From Calocera cornea HHB12733 (lineage: Eukaryota; Basidiomycota; Dacrymycetes; Dacrymycetales; Dacrymycetaceae), in assembly GCA_001632435.1 (NCBI GenBank), contig KV423926.1:165969-229968 (forward strand): a stretch of 64,000 nucleotides of DNA, in the 5' to 3' direction. Below, piece by piece: positions 9,232-64,000 of this stretch. The position numbers and the translations under genes were made by a program. The stretch's first letter is position 1, and the number at the start of each line of letters is the position of its first letter. The notes beneath the pieces were generated by a model. It ran no database searches and was not told where the DNA came from. It saw only the letters and a list, made by a program, of their open reading frames with translations.

Positions 9232-9381
9232 TACAGTTGATGGAGCATACAGTACGGTTGCGTTAACATACAGTGTTCGTTGAGTTAGCATACAGAGTCG
9301 TGAAGTTGGGATATCAGGTCGTTGAGCTAGCTTACAGTGGCGTGGAGGTACGATACAGTGTCATAGTGATAATGCATACGG
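9232..9381. repeat. degenerate 21-22 bp tandem repeat
   Basis: About seven units with consensus CATACAGTG-CGTTGAGTTAG. CATACAG-like cores start at 9246, 9267, 9289, 9310, 9331, 9352 and 9375. The first half of each unit is better conserved than the second. It ends only about 15 bp beyond the RAD9 stop codon. Confidence 0.8.
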
Positions 9382-11831: not shown

Positions 11832-13827
11832 ATGTATGCTCATCGAAGCACGCCCGCCTCGCTAAGGGCCCAGCGAATAAGCTTCCTGCGACGAATGATG
11901 GACCGAGCGACTAGCTCTATGAGCTTCCCTCTTGAAGCGACACCGACTGTCACCACCTCCACACTTCTACAGCCCGAACCACATTTCACGCCTCAATCGC
12001 CCGGCGATGTCAAGGCCCGTAGATCACAAGGACAGCCAAACATGGCACTCAGGCTGGGTGAGGATCAGCGGAGAGCAGTCCATCTAGTCCTGCAGGGTCT
12101 CAGTGTCTTTCTGACGGGGTCCGCTGGTGCGTCTCTTATGCCCCCAGATCTCTCTCCATTTCATTGACTACACCGTCGTAGGGTCCGGCAAGAGCACGGT
12201 CTTACGAGAGATAGTACGACAGCTGGGACTTCAATATTCTGTTGAAGCAATTGGTGTTACGGCGTCAACTGGGATCGCGGCGTGTAATATCGACGGCACA
12301 ACCCTGCACTCGTTCACTGGGATTGGTCTTGGCCAAGGCAGCTCGGAAGACTTGGCGCGCTTGATTAGGCAGAGAAGATTTGCCCTGGCCCGGGTGCTGG
12401 CGTTACGCGTGCTCATCATAGACGAAAGTGCGTACAACTGTGTTAAGCCCATCATAATAAGCTCTAACGAGATCTCAGTATCACAGATCTCCGCGGAACT
12501 GTTTGATAGCCTGTCGGGTGCTTTCAGCATCATACGAAAGGACTCAAGACCTTGGGGCGGGGTTCAAGTAAATGTCATCGTCGTTCGGCAGGACATCACT
12601 GATGGTGTAAGCAGATAGTCGTGTGCGGTGATTTTCACCAGCTTCCACCCGTGCGCAAACGCAACGAACCAATTGAACTGGCATTCGAGGCCTCTTCTTG
12701 GAGCTGCATACAGCATGTCTGCTTTCTCTCAACAGTCTATCGCCAAGGCAACCGTGGTATACATTCTGGTGTTGAAGATTCAAAGAGTCTCGACTGACTC
12801 CTATACCAGACCTTGTTTGTGCTCTCGAGGAGATTCGAATGGGAAAGTTATCCGATTGGGTACACCGACGGATTCTCCAGCTGGAACGAGCACTGGAGGG
12901 CCCAGCCTGCGCTGAGCCAACCCGTCTGTGAGCCTCGGATTTCCTTACTGCAGACAAGAACATTGTTGATCCTGTTTGATAGATATTCTCGCCGCCATTA
13001 TGTAGATGCTTCCAACACCGAGCGTGTACAACGCCTGCCACTGCCTTGCTTTGTATATGACGCTGTCGACTATGTTTCACCAAGCAATAAACAGGAGGGA
13101 CGTGCTGCTCTGACGGAGCTCATCGTACCCGCCAGGCTGGAATTGCGGATAGGAGCACGCGTCATGCTCCTGAAGAATCAACCCCATGATCCCACTCTGG
13201 TCAACGGAAGTCTTGGCCTCGTTGTAGGGTTCATGACCAGGTCTGAGTGGTCGCGGACAAGACAACACCTTGGCTCCCCTCAAGAGACAGGCAGCGTCAG
13301 ACGTGGTCTCTATCCAGTCGTGGATTTCGACAAAACCAGACAACGCGGTGCACGGCAGATGCTTGTCGAGCCGCAATTCTGGTCTCTGGCGATTCAAGGC
13401 GAGCTCATCGCGAGACGCGAACAGGTGCAGCGATTCCTTGCATCGTTCAACAATCTGGAATTGCTTATCATTGATCCTAGGTCCCTCTTGACTTATCGTG
13501 GGCACGATCCGTGCACAAGTGCGCTGGGCAGACACTGGGCAAAGCAGTTATCGATTGCAAGGATATGTGGGACGACGGTACGATAATTTCATATTTATCG
13601 AACGAAGACTGATCTTCTGAAGGTCATTTCTATTCCGCAATGACCCGTATGCAAGAGTGGGATGATGTTCAAGTCGTCAACTTCCACCCAACCAAGGTGC
13701 GACTTTCTAATCACGCTCTATGTGTCTGCTGATGTGATCGCAGATCAAAGCAAACACTAGAGTGACAAACTACTATCGGGAGATCCGAGCCGCCCAGTCA
13801 CAAGACCAGGACAGTGGTACCCACTAG
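11832..13827 (+). CDS. pif1: PIF1-family 5'-3' DNA helicase
   Basis: PIF1 helicases unwind G-quadruplexes, act at telomeres and forks, and in yeasts also work in mitochondria. The N-terminus (ATG 11832) is Arg/Ser-rich without acids at first, compatible with a mitochondrial presequence. Superfamily 1B motifs in order: LRLGEDQRRAV (Q-like), FLTGSAGSGKST (Walker A, split by intron 12127-12181), VTASTGIAA and THLH-like TTLHSFTGIG, LIIDEISQISAELFD (Walker B), VVCGDFHQLPPV (motif III), STVYRQ (motif IV), LKNQP/VNGSLGLV, SVHKCAGQTLGKAV (motif V) and GHFYSAMTRMQ (motif VI). At least seven introns are needed and all those checked keep phase. Oddities: motif V has CAGQ where SQGQ is usual, and motif VI has AMTR for ALSR. 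The conserved Arg is kept. It looks like a host gene, not a Helitron. Confidence 0.88.
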
Positions 13828-27027: not shown

Positions 27028-28897
27028 ATGGCCTCTCAGCAAGTCTTTGACCCGGAACTCGAGAAAGACGCCTCCTTGAGCGACTCCAAGGAGGAAGTCA
27101 AGCATGTTGAGCGTTCTCTTCCTCATGGCCATGAAATCCATGTCAAGAACGCCCGCTTTGCCAACGCCAAGCTGCACACCACTTTGAAGGTGAACAGTAA
27201 GGAGGTGAGTTGCGCGTCGACGGCCCTTTTGTGATCGCTCATCGTCCTACTTAGGGCTTTGTCCTCTTCCTGTGCATGTTCACATGCTTCCTTACCTCTG
27301 CGGTCTCTGGCTACGATGGTACCCTCATGACCTGTAAGCCGTCTCAGAAGCGTCGCCCAATAATGGCTCACCATCGTCTCAGCGATCAATGGCATGCCCT
27401 ACTGGATCGCGACCGTCAACGCGGGCCAGCCCGCCGTCGGTACCGGCCTTATCTTCTCCATGTGTAAGTGTCTCTTCATCATGATCATCCCCAACACTCA
27501 CCGCGCACTCAGACACCATCGGCCAGATCGTCGCACCCGTCTTCGCCGGCCCCTTCACGGACTACTTCGGGCGCAAGTGGGGCGTGATGTCGGGCTGCCT
27601 CATCATCTGCGTCGGCACAGCGATCATCTCGTCCTCCTTCGGCCAGTCGCAATTCGTCGGCGGTCGCTTCCTCCTTGGCTTCGGCGCCTCCGTCATTTCC
27701 GTCGCCGCGCCCGCGTACTGCGTCGAGGTTGCCCCGCCTCAGTGGAGGGGACGCATGATGGGCCTGTTCAACACTGGCTGGTACTCCGGCTCCATCCCCG
27801 CAGCGGGCATCACCCTCGGCACGCGCACCATCCAGAGTGACTGGTCCTGGCGCATTCCCCTTATCCTCCAGGGTCTGCCCGCCCTCATCGTCTGCTTCAT
27901 CATCTTGGTGAGCTACACTCTGCCACCACTCTCCATACAGCCGCTGATGCCCTGCAGTTCCTCCCCGAGTCCCCCCGTTGGCTCATGGCGCAGGGCAAGG
28001 ACGAGCAGGCACTCGCCTTCCTCGTCAAGTATCACGGGTCCGGCAACCCCGAGGACCCGATCGTGATGCTCGAGTACGACGAGTTCAAGGAGTCGATCAT
28101 GATCAACGCGTCCGACAAGCGGTTCTGGGACTGGTCAGAGCTCTGGGACACGGCCAACGCCCGCTGGCGCTCCCTCATGGTTATCTTCATGGGTGTTGCT
28201 GGGCAGTTCTCCGGGTCCGGCCTGAGCTATTTCAACCTGCAGCTGTACAGCCAGCTCGGGTTCAACACGACTCAGCAGTTCGACTTCAACCTCGGCAACC
28301 AGTTCATGTCCTGCACCGGGTCCACGATCGGCACGAGCTTGGCGGACAAGCTGCCCCGCAGGAAGGCGCTCATTGGAGGCACGTTTGGCTGCGCTATGAT
28401 GCTCGTGTGTGCCGGCGCGTTCTCGGAGCTCGTCGCCAAGGGCAAGGCCAACCCGAATATGGAGCGCGCGGGTGTCGCGTGCTACTTCATGTTCCACATC
28501 AGTGCGCTCTTTCCTTTATCGTACAGAACATGATACTGATGCTATGCGCACAGTCTCTGGGTTCACCTTCACGCCCCTGCAGCCGACCTACCCGTCCGAG
28601 GTGCTCAAGACGAACACGCGCGCCAAGGGCATGGCACTGTACTCCGTTGTCTGCGGCGCCTTCAGCTTCATCAACACGTTCGCTGGCCCTATCGCGCTCG
28701 CCAACATCACGTACAACTACATCTACTTCTTCGTCGGATGGGATCTGTTTGAGTGCATCATCTGGTACTTCTTCGGCGTCGAGACGCTCGGAAGGACGAT
28801 CGAGGAGCTCGACGAGATCTTCAGCGCACCTAACCCCGTGAAGGCCAGTATCGCCAACCGCGATGTCATTGTGGACGATGTGCACGAGAAGGTGTAA
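27028..28897 (+). CDS. MFS sugar porter (lactose permease/hexose transporter-like)
   Basis: A plasma-membrane proton-linked sugar transporter with 12 predicted membrane helices. The ATG at 27028 (MASQQVFDPELEKDASL) starts a cytosolic tail. The first helix, GFVLFLCMFTCFLTSAVSGYDGTLMT, follows the first intron. Sugar-porter signatures: FTDYFGRKWGVMSG (loop 2-3), GGRFLLGFG, PPQWRGRMMG, FLPESPRWLMAQGK (PESPRWL), DKLPRRKAL, the YP-containing FTPLQPTYPSEVLKTNTRAKGM, and VETLGRTIEELDEIF (PETKGRTLEE-like). Six exons are needed. The tail is short and acidic. The closest relative in the window is the minus-strand porter at 33.2-35.1 kb. Codon bias is strong. The substrate is not predictable beyond a sugar, and in this context could be an organic acid. 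Confidence 0.93.
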
Positions 28898-31218: not shown

Positions 31219-31570
31219 CCGAAGCGTGTGAGCTGGGCGTGGCGGGCCTGCGTGCGAAGCGGTGCAGTGCGTGCGAAGGGGAGAGGTCGGCCGGGAGCGC
31301 CGGTTTAACGGGACATCTGTGTCGGAGCTATGTGTACTTCCTGTCGAGATTTATGCATGCGAGGTCGTATCGATGCTTTCGATATGCTTGTTAATAATTA
31401 CTTGTTCTGCTTCTCTCATTATGCCAACTAGCCCCAGGAGGTGGGATCACTGGAGGCCCATATACGAGCGTTGGCTCCATTCCAGGCAGCTAAAGGACAG
31501 GCCGTTTCCAGATTGACACCTGCTCGCCCCTGGCCCTTAATGCGCAGGGGGTTTTGGATGGCGCTATACA

Positions 31571-32290
31571 GTCTGGTTCTGCTACACTGTTTGGTTCCGC
31601 CCGGGGCTCTCCTTCCTTGAACTTATTTTCCCCCGGGTTTTATCTGCTTCCGCTGCCGCTTTGTTTCCGCTTGGTGGTTTACCTCCCTGGCATATTTGCT
31701 TCCGTAGAGAATATGCAGCTCACTTCCGCTCCTCACATTGCCTCCGCGGTGAGGCTTGCCTCCGCATCAATATCTGTTTCCGGAATAACATTTACATCCT
31801 CCGACTGATTTACCTCCGCTACCACATTCGTCTCCCCTCCCACATTTGGCGAGGGTCTGACGTTTGCTTCCATCGAATAGTTTACTTTGGCTAATATTTC
31901 TACTTCCCTTTTCCATTTGCTTCCGGCGCATTGTTTGCTTCCGCGCCCCGATCTGCCTCCGCTTAAATCTGTGCCTATGTCATGATATTTGCTTCCGGTG
32001 GCCTATTTGCATCCGCTACACGATTTGCATCCGTCTCGCTTTTTACTTCCGTGCCCTTTTGCTTCCACTATATTGTTCATTTCTGCTCCAGGTAGTTTCT
32101 GCGACAGAAGCAGAGCAGGGGCAATTTGAGTAGCCACTGAATGACTTGGTGGAAGTAAATCTCCCCCAGCGGAAGCAAATATGTAGTGGAGGCATATCAT
32201 ACAGCGGATGCAAAGCTATGGAGCGGATGCAAATATCAGAGCGGAGACAAACCCCACAGGTAAAAGCCAAACTGGAAACAAAGTACGGCC
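31571..32290. repeat. 18-bp-period array A, forward then inverted
   Basis: From 31571 units of 18 bp, consensus TTTGCTTCCGCTNNNNNA, run forward to about 32095. Clean consecutive units are seen from about 31920 to 32040, where the translated frame shows CFR/CIR every six residues. From about 32149 to 32285 the same motif appears as its reverse complement (GGAAGCAAA, GGATGCAAA every 18-19 bp). It lies between the eIF4E 3' end and the second sugar porter's 3' end. Confidence 0.9.
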
Positions 32291-33199
32291 CCGTGCTTCC
32301 CAGTGGGTCTGAGATCTGAAGGGGGCACTGGGACCCTTTAAGGTGCTAATTATCAAGAGGGTTGCGAGTTGCAGATTATCAGCACTTTGCTTTCTTAGGG
32401 GAATTGGCTGAAAATCAGCCAAAAGTGATAAGTAAACAGCACCTGGCTGATTTTCAGTAACATAGTTCATTGAAATCAGTACTACAGCTAAATGCTATCT
32501 ATGCATAATTATGACACTGCGTCAGTCTGGTGTCCATCTAATAAGCAAATTCCTGAAGTCTATCACAATCAATGAGTTGGTACTAAAGCACTGTAGTGAG
32601 TGGCATACCATATTTGCTACCATCTGCCACAGTACTCCTGAGTGGAAAGTCATCAATCCCAGAATATATGCGTGTATTCATGCATATATGTACATGTTCT
32701 TGTCTTGGTCTGGCCCTCCAAGGGGAGGTCCAAATGCAGCCATTGAACGTTGCCATCTGGAAAGCTGTGAGAGGACGTGGGGATGGCTTGTGAGAAAGCA
32801 AGGCCGGGAGATAGATGGTGGGACGGAGCAGAGATGCACCAATGTCCTGAGGCCGACCACCGCCCTTTGGACGCAGACAACAGAAGAATTGGACCCTAAG
32901 AGCTGATCCTGGCTATCAGCCGTTCACCAAGGTAGCACTTTTCCGGCTGCATACCTGTTTATGAGCTGCTTGAGCGCTGAATCATAGACCCTTCTTTGCT
33001 CCCAGTGCGGTAGCCTTGCTTTTCACCCGATTCCCGCACACGGTGCATTGCGTCGATCACGTAAACCACATGTGCTACTCCGCTTTGCTTCAGTATACAG
33101 ATATAGATGTGGATATTTCGTAAATTCGTTATTGCCATCGACTACTTGGGCTATTGCTACGGCTGCAGGCGCACACCCCACACCGTTCCTTTACTCGGC
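32291..33199. other. AT-richer intergenic region with palindromes, no gene
   Basis: TTGGCTGA-AAA-TCAGCCAA (32404-32422) is a perfect hairpin, and GGCTGATTTTCAG repeats its arm at 32445-32457. No protein-like frame or RNA gene was recognised. Confidence 0.5.
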
Positions 33200-35142
33200 C
33201 TAGGCATCGTCAAGAATAGCGATGCGGCCATCTTCCCCCTCCAGAACCTTGCGCATGTGCTGGCCCGCCCTCGGTGGCCACGGCGTCGAGAAGATCTCTT
33301 CGAGCTCCTCCAGCGTCCTCCCCATGGTCTCGATGCAGAAGAAGTACCACAGGATGGACTCGATCGTGTCCCAGCCAACGAAGATGAAGACGAACTGCGT
33401 GGAATTGTCAGTGCTTGAGAGGCGGTCTAAGAACGGTAGCTTACATTGTAGGAGATGTTCTGGAGAGCGATTGGCGTGCAGTACAGATTGATGAAGAGCA
33501 TGACGCCGACTACGACGAAGTACATAGACATCTGGTATCCAGGTCAGTTTGCTCATTTTCATACCGCGTGCGTCGGCCTACCCCTTTGGCGCGAGCCGTG
33601 TTCTGGAGGCACTCGACAGGGTACAGAGCCTGCAGAGGCGAATACGTAAAGCCATAGACCAAGCCGAACAGGACTGCAACAGACCCGCTATTAGGCATTC
33701 AAGCGGAAGGCGGGAGATGAACTCACAATATGAAGCAACAGCACCTTTACCAACGCTGAGCTGGGTGATACCCAGTGTCGCATTATGAGCCCATTTCCAG
33801 GACAGTGCACCGTTAATCCCCAAGCAAAGCGCACAAATTAAGGTGCCCCAGATCAGTACCGGTCTTCGCGGCATCTTGTCTGCCAGGGATACCCCGCAGA
33901 TGGCCCCAAACGCGGAAACGAACGAATTGGCCAAGTTGAGCACGAACTGCATATATGAATCGTAACCCACCGCCGCATAAATTTGGGTGTTGAAATAACC
34001 GAGGCCATTACCCGAGAACTGTCCGAAGGTGCCCATGAGGATGACCATGAAGCTGCGCCAGCGTGCGCTCGGTGTATTGAACAGCTCGGAGTAATCCCAC
34101 CAACGCTTGTCCGACGCGTCCAGCTTGATGTTCTCCTTGAACTCGGTCCATTCAAGCTCAACAATCGGATTCTTGGGGTCACCATTGCCGTGGAAGCGGA
34201 TCAAAAAGTCGAGCGCCTTCTGCTCGTGCCCGTTGGCGAGTAGCCATCGGGGTGACTCGGGCAGGAACCAGACAGCGCAGACCACCACCATAGACGGAAC
34301 GGCTTGAAAAATGAGGGGAAGGCGCCACGAGAGATCGCTGTTGATCGGTGCTGTGCCGAGAGTTATGCCAGCAGCGGGGATAGATCCACCGAACCAACCA
34401 CACTAGCAGACGATAGTAAGAAAAGGTGGCTACGTGAGTGTCGTCAAATGCTCACGTTGTAGGCGCCAGTCATTCGACCTCTCCAATGCGGTGGGCAGAC
34501 TTCCACGCAATACGACGGCGCAGCTGTAGCCATGATGACCACGAAAAAACCGAGGAGGAAGCGACCCGCCAAGAACTGCGGCTTTGCCTCGGCCGAGACG
34601 ATCACCACCATACCAATGATGATTCCGATGCCCCCAATGAACATGCCTCCTCGACGGCCAAGCCGGTCGGCGAGAGGGCCGGCAATCCATGGTGAGACGA
34701 GTTGGCCGATGGTATCTTGATAAAAATAGGTTACTGGACTGTATGTGGGGCTATAATAGTACGTACACATAGAGAAGATGAGGCCCGTCCCCGAGCCTAC
34801 CACATCACCGTTGAACCGGGCCTGATAGTAAGGCATGATGTTGATGGCAGTCATGAGTGAACTATCGTATCCATTTGCGCATGAGCACAGGAATGAGATG
34901 AAGCAGCAGAAGTAGAGTATCCACGAATCTTTCGACCACGGGTTGAGCCGACCCTGTTTGATCGCCGCCTCGTACGCTGCGTTCCTGATTGCATGGATAC
35001 GGGCGTTGGGATCCGCAGGCAAGCCGTGTACATGCTCGAGGTGTAGAGTGCCGCCGGAAAGCTCGTCTTTCTCATTGATACTGTTGTCGAGCGGCGATGC
35101 GGGGTCCACCTCAGGTTTCTCAGTGATCGCGGAGGTTACCAT
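33200..35142 (-). CDS. MFS sugar porter, paralogue of the 27 kb transporter
   Basis: A plasma-membrane sugar transporter of the same subfamily. The ATG at 35142 (MVTSAITEKPEVDPASPLD) was chosen over an upstream in-frame ATG at 35310 because the acidic MVTS... head fits the family. Signatures: FCCFISFLCSCANGYDSSLMT (first helix), GPLADRLGRRGGM, AGRFLLGFF, CPPHWRGRMTGAYN, FLPESPRWLLANGHEQKAL, DKMPRRPVL, FTYSPLQALYPVECLQNTARAKG and IETMGRTLEELEEIF near the end. Several introns interrupt it. The N-terminal tail is longer than in the 27 kb copy. The two genes face each other across eIF4E and repeat array A, suggesting an old inverted duplication. Confidence 0.93.
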
Positions 35143-36059
35143 AGCCGATAATGGGAAGAAAGTGCTGGCGGGACACCGTGCGGCATTGAGATGGGGAGTC
35201 CGACGCTTTAACCAACGGAATGGTGGAGGGGCTCTTTGGCTGACCAGGGGCGACAGATGCCAAAGATAGAAGCACAGATCATGTGTCCTTCCCAAGTGAG
35301 TATACCCCAAGAATCAGGGGATGTTGGGAAAAGAAGCACAACATGCCGGAAGGCTACAGTGCTCTTGTGTGGGGCTCCGCCATGATGCAAGCTTGCACTA
35401 ATACAGTTCAGAGAAGCAACGTTATTATTGGATGCGTGGTTGAGAGGTAATTATCCCACCCGAAGATTTGGCTACGAAGGGTGGAGGCGCGGTGGAGGGT
35501 GCCTAGCATCCTTCTTTGAGCATCGCACGAGTACTGGTATTGCTGAGTAGCAGGTAGAAGACCGTGAGGCACGTTTCAGGTGTAGCGAGGTTTCTGGCTC
35601 AAGATGGCCAGGAAGTTAGCTGGGAAGACTTGAAGGGAGACCTAGCCCCTTCAAGTCAGGGGGCAGCTTGACATTAGACCGAGGCAGCCACCGCGCTGGG
35701 CAACGCAGAGTCCCCACGGCCAGAGAAGCAATGGGCGGCGAGGCCGGTCCGTCGGCGCATCCGACGTCCCAAGGATTCTCCGAGCCAGCGAGCTAACAAG
35801 CAGAAGGTTGTGTAATTGATCCGAGCATGGCAGCGGAAATGTCGATTACTGTAGCGGCTCTTCTCGGAAAACTGAATTGTCGCTCAGAGGAGGAAGGAAG
35901 CAGAGGTAGTTATTGTTAGCACATGACACTCGTCATAAACTCGGAGGACTTCCCGAGTTTCGTGACAATGGCTCTGCGCTCTGCACCAGAGCGCATAGCT
36001 TACACAAGTATACCTCCGTTCAATCCCGTGTCCGCCTGAAATTGCCGCTCGGGAGACTC
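35143..36059. other. intergenic; promoter of the minus-strand porter and head of repeat block B
   Basis: No gene. GACTTGAAGGG...CCCTTCAAGTC (35627-35657) can form a hairpin. From about 35950 the sequence matches, in patches, the segment before array E at 63.8 kb. Confidence 0.5.
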
Positions 36060-36665
36060 TTTGCTCCTGCTTGGAAGTCTGGTTCCGCCATGGGTTTTAC
36101 TTCCGCTGAAAACTTTGCATCCGCTGAGACCTTTGCTTGGGCTATCTAGTTCGCCTCCGCTATAATATTTGCCTCCCCTTCAATGTTTATTTCCGCTGTC
36201 AGATTTGTTTCCGTGTTATGGTCTGCTTTGGCCGTGGTATTTGCTTCGGCTGCGTATGCGCTTCCGCAATCAAGTCTACTTCCGCTGTCCTATTTGCCTC
36301 CGCTGTAGGAGATTCATTATCAGTATTGCCTTTGTTTCCCCACTAAAAAGTACTTCAGTAGTGGGTTCACTTCCGCTGTACAATTTACCTCGGCTTTACA
36401 ATGTGCTTCATCTATAGGAGCTCCTTCCCCGTCCGAGTCGACCTCCGTGCACGGAGGAAAGCAGGAAAGCGGCAGTATATTCTATCGCGGAAGTACATTA
36501 TTTAGAGGAAGCAAGTAGAACACCGGAAGCAGATGCGGGAGCGGAAGCAAGTTAAATGACGGATGCAAATGCTCAGCCGGATGCAAATAAGTCAGCGGAG
36601 GCAACTCCGGTGAGCGGAAGCACATATTTTTCTCAGCGGGATCAAAGAGGCAAATCCCATCGCTT
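36060..36665. repeat. 18-bp-period array B, forward then inverted
   Basis: Forward units (ACTTCCGCTGAAAACTTT, GCATCCGCTGAGACCTTT and so on) run from about 36060 to 36320, with a few more at 36360-36415. Reverse-complement units (GGAAGCAAG, GGATGCAAA each 18 bp) run from about 36487 to 36660. The region around 36420-36485 is the turn-over point. Same motif and layout as array A. Confidence 0.92.
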
Positions 36666-48799: not shown

Positions 48800-49210
48800 T
48801 AGGTTACAAATATACTTCCGTTTACTCGCGTATTCGCGTCAAGGACGTGTGACGGTAGCTTTGTACCCGCTTGAGCGCAATTCTGCATCCGCCCAAGCTT
48901 CTACTTCCGTGTCCCATTTGCTTCCGCACACAGGGAGCTTTACTCCCGCCACTTCATTTACTTCCCCGGCAGGGGTTGTTTTGGTTTGGGTGTTTACATG
49001 TGAGGCTATTTGCTTCCGCTCCCTCAATTGCTTCCGCTATGCAATGCCTTTACTTTGGTGGGAGGAAAGAGTGGTCAAGCGGGAGCAAAATTTACTCAGG
49101 CCCGAACCAAAGGACTGTGATCCGGAATTAAATAGCTCCCGCGCGGAGGCAAGGCCACGTCCGAGCGAAAGTAGAAGTTTACACGGCAGTAAACGGAAGT
49201 GCCCAGCGAT
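48800..49210. repeat. 18-bp-type array C, forward then inverted
   Basis: Forward motifs (ATTTGCTTCCGC, TTCTACTTCCG, TTTACTTCCCC) run from about 48806 to 49055. Reverse motifs (GGGAGCAAAA, GCGGAGGCAAG, AAACGGAAGT) run from about 49075 to 49205. It is more degenerate than A, B and D, and the 18-bp phase is kept only in patches. It ends less than 200 bp before the kinesin start codon. Confidence 0.75.
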
Positions 49211-52679: not shown

Positions 52680-53210
52680 GATCTTTGCTTCCGTCTGAGG
52701 GTAATTTTTGTTCCTGCTTTGGGTCGTTTACTGCCTTCGACTTCACTTTACTGCCAATGAACATTTGCTCCCACTCCGGAGGTTTGCTCCCGCCTCAAAT
52801 TGTGCTTTCCCCTTCTGTTTGCTTCCGCTCCATTCTTTGTTTCCGTCTGAGTGTTTGCTCCCAGTTCCGAATATCTTTCGGTGATGGTAGTTGCATCCGC
52901 TTGGGTGTTTACCTCCGCTTCACTGTCTGCTTCCGCTCCTGGGTTTGCCTCCGCTCATGTGTTTGCTTCGGCCTGAATAGTTGTTTCCGGGCTGTCTCCG
53001 TGTGGTGGTTTGCTACCGAAGACAGTATGTCTCCGCTTGAATGTCTTCTTCCGCTTGGCATCGGTTATAGGTCTAGTATTTACTTCCGCTCTAGCATTTA
53101 CTTCCGTTTGAGCCTGTACCACTTCTGCTGCAGAACTTGCTTCCGCGGGAGCAAGCAGGAGCAAATCTGAAGCGGAAGACAGTATTCAAACGGAAACAAA
53201 TACAAAGCCG
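52680..53210. repeat. 18-bp-period array D, forward with short inverted end
   Basis: Forward units fill 52684 to about 53150 with exact 18-bp steps over long stretches (TGCATCCGCTTGGGTGTT, TACCTCCGCTTCACTGTC, TGCTTCCGCTCCTGGGTT, TGCCTCCGCTCATGTGTT are consecutive). Reverse-complement motifs (GCGGGAGCAAG, GGAGCAAA, GCGGAAGACAG, ACGGAAACAAAT) occupy 53143-53205. It lies between the kinesin stop and the start of NLE1. Long frames through it are by-products of the repeat. Confidence 0.92.
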
Positions 53211-53642
53211 CGGCAATCTCGGCCCCAAGGGGAGCAGATCCTCAAAGCTCACGACACGCATCAGTCCTCCACTAATCCAGCGCCGCACACAAACGTTGGA
53301 TTTTTATCTATAGTTCCATTCCGCACATCCTTTCGACAGAACACGCTTAAGATGTAGACTATGCGTTCGGAGTGCAAAGCGCCGAGCGAGTGGCACGAAA
53401 CTCGGAAGTCGTAGAAGGGCAACGGGGTCTGTTGAACATTGACGATGCAACAAGGCGGCGTAAATGGGCAAGCGGGCTCGAAAGGTGGGCTATTGTAGGC
53501 TGACACTATGTGCTCAGATTCACATGCATCGATGCACAGCCACATGAGCCACCTATAGCATAGAGGGACCCTTAGGATAATTTTGGGCTTACGGGACACT
53601 GTCCCCATCGTCTTGCGCGCAGACTCACCACTGCTCCCTACA
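53211..53642. promoter_or_regulatory. upstream region of NLE1, no separate gene
   Basis: About 430 bp with no convincing protein; presumably the NLE1 promoter. Confidence 0.35.
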
Positions 53643-62149: not shown

Positions 62150-63117
62150 ATGGCAGCAGCATTCAGGCTCTATAATGAATCCTTCAATCGGAACCCAAGT
62201 CGCACGTTGATGAGTGAGCCTCGACAGCTTCCCAACTGGTGTGACCGGCTCACCCGCACAACTAGTCACCAACGGCGTCCTGACCGCATTTGCCGACACG
62301 GTAGTACGTATTTTCATCTCGCGTTTACCCTCCGTGATGTTCAATTTTCCTTGCAGGCGCAGCATGCTCAGATGATCGTGAGTTGGCACACCGTAGTGAA
62401 ACCGTCTTCCTGTTACCGACGATTGGCACTAGTTTTCAAAAGACGATGATCCAGCAACAGTGCGCCACTATGATCCATACCGAACTTTACGTTTCTTTGC
62501 GTTTGGCTTCGGCATGGGACCTCTGTTAGGACGATGGAACAGATTTCTTGAACAAGCGTTTCCTCTGCGGAACGTCGGGGGCAAGGGCAGTAGGGTCAGC
62601 ATGTCGTCATTGGCTAAGAGGGTGGTATGCGATCAGATTATAATGTGAGCACTTCAAAGGCTACTCCTGTATCGATTGCCTTGCTGAATATGTACAGGGC
62701 CCCCATTGGCGTAAGAAACGAGCTGTGTCAGCACCCGCCGTTGCTGATGACCGTTGCAGCTTGTGATTTTCACCGGTTCTATGGGCGTGATGGAAGGCAA
62801 GAATGTCCAGCAAATCCGACAAAAATACAAGGACATGTATTGGTCCGCGTTGATAGCTAACTGGCAAGTTTGGCCAGCTGCACAATTGATCAACTTTCGC
62901 TACATGCCATTGCCGTGAGCAGACAGTATATTGTTATGGAACGCAAAACTCATACTTTTAACTAGCTACCGTGTCCCTTTCCAGGCAAGCCTGGGAGTGT
63001 TCTGGTCTCTTTATCTTTCGCTTCTGAACTCTAGGTATGGTTCCTCTCCCCCAGTCTACAAATCGCTGACAGGGACACAGAGGAAGTACCAGCCCAACCG
63101 AAGGAGTCGCCATCTGA
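62150..63117 (+). CDS. Mpv17/PMP22 family membrane protein
   Basis: Members sit in the inner mitochondrial or peroxisomal membrane (yeast Sym1). The start ATG 62150 reads MAAAFRLYNESFNRNPSRTLM. After an intron (GTGAGCCTC...ACAACTAG) comes ITNGVLTAFADT, as in the family (L...T.. ..G.L...GD). Later exons give AQHAQMI, DPYRTLRFFAFGFGMGPLLGRWNRFLEQAFPLR (the R...G...GP..H.W...L signature with Arg for His), RVVCDQIIMAPIG, DMYWSALIANWQVWPAAQLINFRYMPLP (the W..WP..Q..NF...P hallmark) and YRVPFQASLGVFWSLYLSLLNSR. A last intron (GTATGGTT...GACACAG) leads to a short tail with TGA at 63117. Some internal borders are approximate. Confidence 0.85.
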
Positions 63118-63889
63118 GCCGGAGACTAGCACTCGATTGCTGCAGCCATGCGCGCACCCGTCAATTCTGTATCCATAGCTCCTATGCGGCGTAATATTCA
63201 GTCGCCAGGCGTGCGCAACCAAGCTTTCGCTGCCCACGCGAGCACACCGGTTCGTTTTGGTTGCGTGGCACGAAGCAAGATCGGAGCACGGAATGAGTCA
63301 CGCTCGTGAACCGAAGAAGCAGATATTCAGGGCGGCAGGGCCACAATGTGAACATTTGATGTCATCCATCCACGATTTGGACTGCCCACCAGGACAATGT
63401 GGTCCTCCCACAAATGCGCATACCACCAGACCACCAAACCTACCTGATGCTACAAGGTGTGCCACCCCGGCCGCTGACGTGCGAACCCTTCATATTGGCA
63501 TCCACTTTTGCCATGGTGTCTGTTGGGCATCGCCATCAACATACTCGCACTCGGCTGATGGCCACCGCGCTGCAGATGGACAGCATCGCATCGCAAGATC
63601 ATTGATAAAGAAGCATTGACGAATGGTGTGGTTCCAGTAATGCAACGTCTCCAACGGAAGTAAAAGTCAGCCAAACTGAAGCTCATGCAGGACAGGATGA
63701 TGGCCGGTGTTAACTTCCGAAGCCGGAATGCACGCGCAGAGGTGCAGAAGTTGGAAGCTGACAAGCTGCACGCGCCTTGCTTTGCAAAGCCCACGGGACA
63801 TTCTGCGAGAGGACTTCTGGTAGGATTTTCACGACAATCGCTCTGCGGTCTGCACCAGGGCACATGGCTCACAAGCAAAGAGTCCCCCA
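63118..63889. other. intergenic; contains the head segment of repeat block E
   Basis: No gene recognised. From about 63810 the sequence resembles 35950-36080 (shared GCTCTGCG-TCTGCACCAG and AAGTCTGGTT) and leads into array E. Confidence 0.5.
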
Positions 63890-64000
63890 AGTGGGGGCTC
63901 TTCTTTGCTCTTTGCTCTGGCTTGAAAGTCTGGTTACACTATAGTTTTTACTTCCGCGTGGGCCTTTGCTGATGCTTGAGCTATTGCTTCCGCTGTATAC
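63890..64000. repeat. 18-bp-period array E, cut by the window end
   Basis: GTCTGGTTACACTATA, TTTTTACTTCCGCGTGG and TATTGCTTCCGCTGTATA continue the same forward motif and near-18-bp step as arrays A to D. The rest lies beyond the window. Confidence 0.75.

Follow-up and report, generated by a model that had tools for sequence, protein, structure and literature searches.

In Schizosaccharomyces pombe, IRC, tRNA and IR elements flank heterochromatin, and the mat IR has five B-boxes for TFIIIC; in the boundary reporter described in the same sections of that study, IRC had no activity, the tRNA cluster was weak and the mat IR was strong (PMC4502379). Centromeres of Cryptococcus and Kwoniella are regional, rich in Tcn-like long terminal repeat (LTR) retroelements and marked by dimethylation of histone H3 at lysine 9 (H3K9me2), with 5-methylcytosine (5mC) in several species, though not in K. 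pini and at a subset only in K. bestiolae; inverted repeats near centromeres, a proposed route to inversions, were not detected according to the cited sections (PMC11185503). The gene for CTCF is restricted to higher metazoans, as stated in the relevant part of a review (PMC10246852). In this study, we analysed a stretch of 64,000 nucleotides (the window, contig C13:165969-229968) from the dacrymycete jelly fungus Calocera cornea, which contains five blocks (A to E, Table 1) of arrays built from an 18-bp unit with a 12-bp core, TTTGCTTCCGCT, and a 6-bp spacer. One frame of the window is 100% identical, over 95% of the query, to a protein of C. cornea HHB12733. All results refer to this one genome, for which an assembly of 32.1 Mb in 302 contigs was searched; the loci examined outside the window were picked around strong matches and not randomly. 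On balance, the arrays are likely to supply the repeated binding sites of polar elements on either side of putative regional centromeres in C. cornea.

The arrays show an order of orientation across the genome. Orientation counts rest on the array matches listed (244 in 122 blocks on 37 contigs), and the strict patterns used overlook many arrays. Among these matches, polarity is seen without any landmark: in the 16 contigs with arrays on two strands, + arrays lie left of − arrays in 84 concordant against 15 discordant pairs, a result reached by 0 of 20,000 shuffles. Thus, arrays within a contig tend to face one centre. As an independent landmark we used a 981-bp piece from the centre of C37, which has at least 22 matches in 18 contigs, clustered in each contig. 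All 18 contigs hold arrays, and 67 of the 76 array clusters among the matches listed face the landmark (62 toward and 6 away when right inverted-repeat copies and minor opposing parts are left out), with a majority toward it in 16 of the 18 contigs. A second piece of the centre element adds C73, plus fragments in C19, C118, C273 and C132. In the resulting 19 centre contigs, 75 listed blocks point toward the centre, 8 away and 4 are ties; blocks with at least two matches and a clear majority are divided 39 to 0. The inward-facing series are tens of kb long and reach about 120 kb at most. Convergent asymmetric sites are a feature of CTCF-type loop anchors, and like these, as far as the cited part of the review describes them, the Calocera sites are asymmetric, relevant in their orientation and face each other across a domain; unlike CTCF sites, many of them make up one array, and the domain that they enclose has a centromere-like core in its middle.

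Most of the innermost arrays examined lie at a step in CpG content. In a change-point test on 17 near-centre arrays (test window up to 2.5 kb either side of the array), 15 had the transition between normal and depleted CpG no more than 500 bp away, and in 8 it fell within the array itself. CpG was lower ahead of the array than behind it in 23 of 30 blocks (Wilcoxon p 0.0007), largely due to the near-centre arrays. The observed/expected (o/e) CpG ratio is 0.11 in the cores of C37 and C65 and 0.30 in that of C13, against 0.94-0.97 in the window. Matches to cytosine methylases are present in the genome, and therefore decay of 5mC is a fair reading of the depletion; we infer that it may record cytosine methylation of heterochromatin. 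The units of block E have themselves lost their CpGs (n = 33; CG kept in 4, TG in 16, CA in 11). Like the S. pombe boundaries in the cited sections, the Calocera elements lie at a heterochromatin-like edge, occur as inverted pairs and carry repeated sites for what would be one factor; unlike them, they are 18-bp arrays of another motif, come without detected tRNA genes and extend tens of kb into DNA of normal CpG. A boundary built on tRNA genes was rejected: no tRNA gene was found in the window and 22 loci (ARAGORN with the bacterial code, which intron-containing tRNAs may escape; L030-L038 outside the scan), B-boxes not having been searched.

The centres themselves resemble regional centromeres in several respects. 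Among 17 selected open frames scanned with Pfam (10 + 7), those of the centre element gave RVT_1, RT_RNaseH, Integrase_H2C2 and Chromo domains over the cut-off, with gag and rve matches below it, which identifies the element as a chromodomain Ty3/gypsy retroelement. It forms one cluster per contig (a lower bound), and a comparison of four cores gave common stretches of about 70-98% identity. Some contigs with integrase matches have no listed arrays, hence the arrays are no general marker of retroelements. Of the six centres at which the two innermost sides were examined, five have a core flanked by near-centre inverted repeats that carry arrays (Table 1). Four of these cores extend over C13:230.5-258.2 kb, C37:171.4-179.9 kb, C65:133.7-145.8 kb and C143:42.9-49.7 kb. 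C9 is the exception: no inverted repeat was found between its two near-centre stretches examined, although a CpG step lies on its two sides. In their LTR retroelement content, Calocera centres resemble the centromeres of Cryptococcus and Kwoniella, for which the cited sections describe no polar arrays (PMC11185503). Judged from these sequence features, the retroelement-rich, CpG-depleted centres are quite probably centromeres. Two other accounts were rejected. Mirror duplication of whole arms is contradicted by the left C13 arm, which has no match at 260-265 kb, and by the two C9 stretches, between which there is none. A giant transposon with long terminal inverted repeats, considered for the C37, C65 and C13 repeats, fails because their outer ends are unrelated between contigs, no target duplication is present and they lie at the polarity centre. 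Within three of the cores, a 480-bp sequence is shared at 96-98% (C37:173082-173561, C65:137303-137782, C13:249562-250041), far closer than most of the rest; it is perhaps the solo LTR of a recent element. In the C13 core, DNA of normal CpG at 233-238 kb includes a 1346-aa open frame with an integrase match below the cut-off (C13:232890-233177), and this stretch may perhaps be a younger insertion in an otherwise depleted core.

Several observations weigh against polar elements around centromeres. With regard to orientation, the only listed cluster of C62 faces away from the landmark, C105 has one cluster each way, and the blocks that point away or tie have to be counted. No centre element was found in 18 of the 37 array contigs, and conversely C19, C118, C273 and C132 carry its fragments without listed arrays. 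With regard to the CpG step, 10 of the 17 boundary tests come from five inverted-repeat pairs, the change point is 1,046 bp away from the array at C29 and 854 bp away at C31, the second array of C79 sits within a depleted stretch, and DNA outside the left C37 inverted repeat (165-168 kb) is depleted too. An eighteenth near-centre array, C21:119996-120526 (L035), has normal CpG on its two sides and was for this reason excluded from the change-point test; a further array there runs off the examined end. Finally, the outer arrays, blocks B to D of the window included, have normal CpG behind and ahead and hence do not bound heterochromatin. It is also conceivable that the arrays are the same boundary elements, but that the centres are heterochromatic retroelement islands and not centromeres. 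What marks the centre is one retroelement together with depleted CpG, and 19 centre contigs plus four with fragments, some of them maybe halves of one, would suit such islands. However, the single element cluster per contig (again a lower bound), the orientation held over tens of kb, the cores framed by inverted repeats and the integrase matches elsewhere without listed arrays speak for centromeres, and we regard islands as rather unlikely.

What the arrays consist of bears on their possible function. Across 495 units, taken from the window and from 20 further loci (with inverted-repeat copies and the 5 kb in which L013 overlaps the window counted in), core columns hold 0.50-1.56 bits each and spacer columns at most 0.12 bits, that is, almost no sequence preference. 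Units from different arrays are 0.676 identical in the core and 0.255, the random level, in the spacer; for adjacent units the values are 0.715 and 0.327. The strict 18-bp period claimed in an earlier note on the window has to be softened, since 18 bp is the dominant distance (281 of the 428 distances from unit to unit in the range of 9 to 27 bp; 17 bp in 52, 19 bp in 32), whereas its conserved and free halves of the unit are borne out. The five blocks were recovered where it had placed them, by direct motif scan and by a periodic hidden Markov model (HMM). The switch to the reverse complement that it described holds for A (528 bp of + followed by 193 bp of −), B (398 and 175 bp) and D (384 and 63 bp), but not for C, in which the HMM found + units only, or for E, which has a single orientation and whose inverse copy begins 28 kb onward, beyond the window. 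The periodicity withstood the shuffles that the note had called for: one shuffled window stayed below the HMM threshold throughout and all 12 first-order Markov windows were free of segments, while the reversed window gave four weaker segments (18.8-60.5 vs up to 229.5), all within blocks A, B and D. Recurrence elsewhere in the genome was likewise found, with 205 forward and 213 reverse matches to core-N6-core when as many as 3 mismatches were allowed, whereas the reversed pattern had none on either strand (this control gave 0 + 0 in six pattern searches and 1 + 0 in one).

Since the core is conserved while spacers are random, neutral drift of a tandem repeat is no full account of the arrays. 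An ordinary degenerate minisatellite that drifts neutrally could draw on the recent unit-by-unit expansion seen in some arrays (whole units duplicated at C8:199718-199837, for example), but elsewhere spacers are randomised with the core retained, drift would not keep the core at the identities given above, and it gives no polarity; we find this origin scarcely credible. Homogenisation of whole units, as in tandem satellites, is likewise absent from the spacer columns, and the array at C8:199689 alone is locally homogeneous. This array (C8:199689-199907) is the most homogeneous one examined, with identical tandem units in which the spacers TCCCCG and TACTCA are repeated. A coding repeat is unlikely: when the 126 frames of 21 arrays (each at least about 300 bp long) were read, 121 were interrupted by stops. 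The remaining five belong to five different arrays, among them an inverted-repeat copy, and do not share a phase. An intergenic placement of the blocks, as given in the earlier note, would fit. The simple account is a binding site for a sequence-specific protein in each core, repeated along the array, so that the binding site suspected in the earlier note gains support from the kept core and the free spacer; a zinc-finger protein, for instance, might match a 12-bp site that recurs every 18 bp.

Arrays often lie within a bounded composite that consists of an outer module X, a module Y, the array and an inverted Y. Module positions were counted in 33 independent blocks (40 blocks minus 7 right inverted-repeat copies; the L035 arrays and the second arrays of C29 and C79 lie outside the list). 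Module X, which starts sharply, follows the array's orientation and stands behind it in 14 blocks, and it stands ahead in 3. For module Y the counts are 10 (behind, same orientation), 2 (behind, inverted), 9 (ahead, inverted) and 1 (inside). These shared modules imply that many arrays belong to bounded elements. A DNA search with X and Y together found six places, all in array contigs: C29 (the query), C66, C58, two in C105, which face the C105 centre, and C21:95233, which faces away from the C21 centre. With a strict X pattern, five places came up: those in C143, C70 and C18 have a listed array of matching orientation directly ahead of them, and the other two are the known C8 copy and C29:143914, which has no adjacent listed array. 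Structured RNA in module X was rejected, since shuffled sequences fold as well as the four copies tested (z −1.04, 1.25, 0.08, 0.17). The conserved inner edge module contains CACGTG, the motif of basic helix-loop-helix factors such as Cbf1, at C143 and C65:132.5 kb; other copies differ there.

The elements might be what is left of a non-autonomous mobile element that had terminal modules and subterminal arrays, preferred pericentromeric DNA and has no function today, akin to the non-autonomous elements that the earlier note had proposed. The common outer edge X, the inverted Y at two ends of several blocks and arrays in otherwise dissimilar surroundings would speak for such an origin, and shared block ends were indeed found. 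The outermost modules, however, differ, with X outside and another edge inside. No direct repeat that could be a target-site duplication was seen by eye at C143, C63 and C8:283 (two visible edges, the inner one imprecise) or at the three long inverted-repeat pairs of C37, C65 and C13, and near-identical dispersed copies are missing among 31 blocks, in which, inverted-repeat pairs aside, one pair shares at least 60 bp at 85% or more (75 bp). A mobile remnant would also leave unexplained the orientation of the listed blocks, the conserved cores next to free spacers and the location at the CpG step. As a simple transposon predicts neither centre-facing polarity nor the CpG-step position, the transposon reading is only partly supported, and mobile remnants without function are distinctly unlikely.

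For polar elements at centromeres, we propose the following mechanism. A sequence-specific protein would coat each array with one polarity, and that the arrays are coated in this way is very probable. Most likely, the innermost arrays would stop the outward spread of heterochromatin. The inward-facing series would anchor the loops of cohesin or condensin in a directional manner and so hold them around the centromere, like convergent CTCF sites in animals. Because the outer arrays lie in normal CpG, a heterochromatin barrier cannot be their sole role, and direction-dependent anchoring of loop-extruding complexes is favoured for them. That arrays act as a directional barrier or as loop anchors is nevertheless a tentative proposal, with somewhat less than an even chance of being right. 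Polar sequences aimed at one chromosomal region from two sides are known from bacteria (KOPS and Ter), and the Tus-Ter logic is that of a polar fork barrier; KOPS and Ter share their polarity with the Calocera arrays but are bacterial, single sites and of other motifs. Potentially, the arrays could be polar replication-fork barriers, which would restrict forks to a single direction on their way into or out of the centromere region. The two groups of polar arrays that oppose each other across a centre and the repeated protein-like sites would agree with this, but their position at the CpG step is not explained by fork barriers alone, and we consider them decidedly improbable. In Mucor, pericentric Grem-LINE1 elements are arranged around the kinetochore core; the pericentric arrangement is alike, with LINE elements there and 18-bp arrays here.

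The left arm on which block E is the near-centre array carries blocks A to D as its outer arrays; the coordinates of the five are collected in Table 1. Block A is flanked by frames that read like sugar transporters (27841-28530, +, and 33581-35313, −). The frame at 12798-13583 (+) carries a Pif1 2B helicase domain (PF21530) and is perhaps a Helitron-like helicase. A 21-bp tandem repeat of 5.6 copies at 9244-9362 has a unit other than that of the 18-bp arrays. Rfam gave no gathering-level match across the window and one sub-threshold miRNA match in four loci.

Table 1. Features of the window, with positions in the window, and near-centre inverted repeats of the assembly.
Feature	Positions	Strand	Remarks
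Block A, main array	31562..32089	+	HMM 229.5; points right, toward the centre at C13 ~230-258 kb
Block A, short opposing array on the inner side	32090..32282	-	HMM 87.3
CpG-depleted 500 bp directly ahead of block A	32283..32782	.	o/e 0.28
Module Y behind block B	35945..36044	+	
Block B, main array	36050..36447	+	HMM 163.5
Block B, opposing array	36448..36622	-	HMM 80.4
Partial module Y behind block C	48806..48842	+	
Block C, array	48882..49045	+	HMM 75.0; no opposing units by HMM
Block D, main array	52764..53147	+	HMM 170.0
Block D, short opposing array	53148..53210	-	HMM 24.5
Inverted module Y ahead of block D	53353..53410	-	
Left arm (part in the window) of the 1.85-kb inverted repeat C13:228682-230528 / 258217-260064	62714..64000	+	99.7% identical
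Weak module X behind block E	63747..63787	+	nhmmer E 8.4e-4
Module Y behind block E	63824..63873	+	
Block E, innermost array of the left side	63899..64000	+	Goes on past the window edge as far as C13:230514; 49 bp from the CpG change point
Inverted repeat C37			3,064 bp; 99.8% identical
Inverted repeat C65			1,354 bp; 99.9% identical
Inverted repeat C13			1,848 bp; 99.7% identical
Inverted repeat C143			3,899 bp; 100% identical
Inverted repeat C105			Two pieces, about 98%, around a stretch reading N

In the open-access literature, no centromere study on Calocera or Dacrymycetes was found by title, and nothing like polar, convergent or inverted-repeat centromere elements by title and the start of the abstract. 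It is tempting to speculate that C. cornea, and perhaps dacrymycetes generally, evolved a polar code independently of CTCF, in which arrays of one 12-bp site, spaced at 18 bp, would mark the direction of the centromere over tens of kb on two sides and act as one-way barriers to loop-extruding complexes and heterochromatin, a possibility on the doubtful side. In summary, the elements described here provide candidates at the level of sequence for centromeres and pericentromere edges in Dacrymycetes, and they would offer a natural test of whether chromatin anchors that depend on orientation have also arisen outside animals, in which sites, direction and predicted domain edges are explicit.
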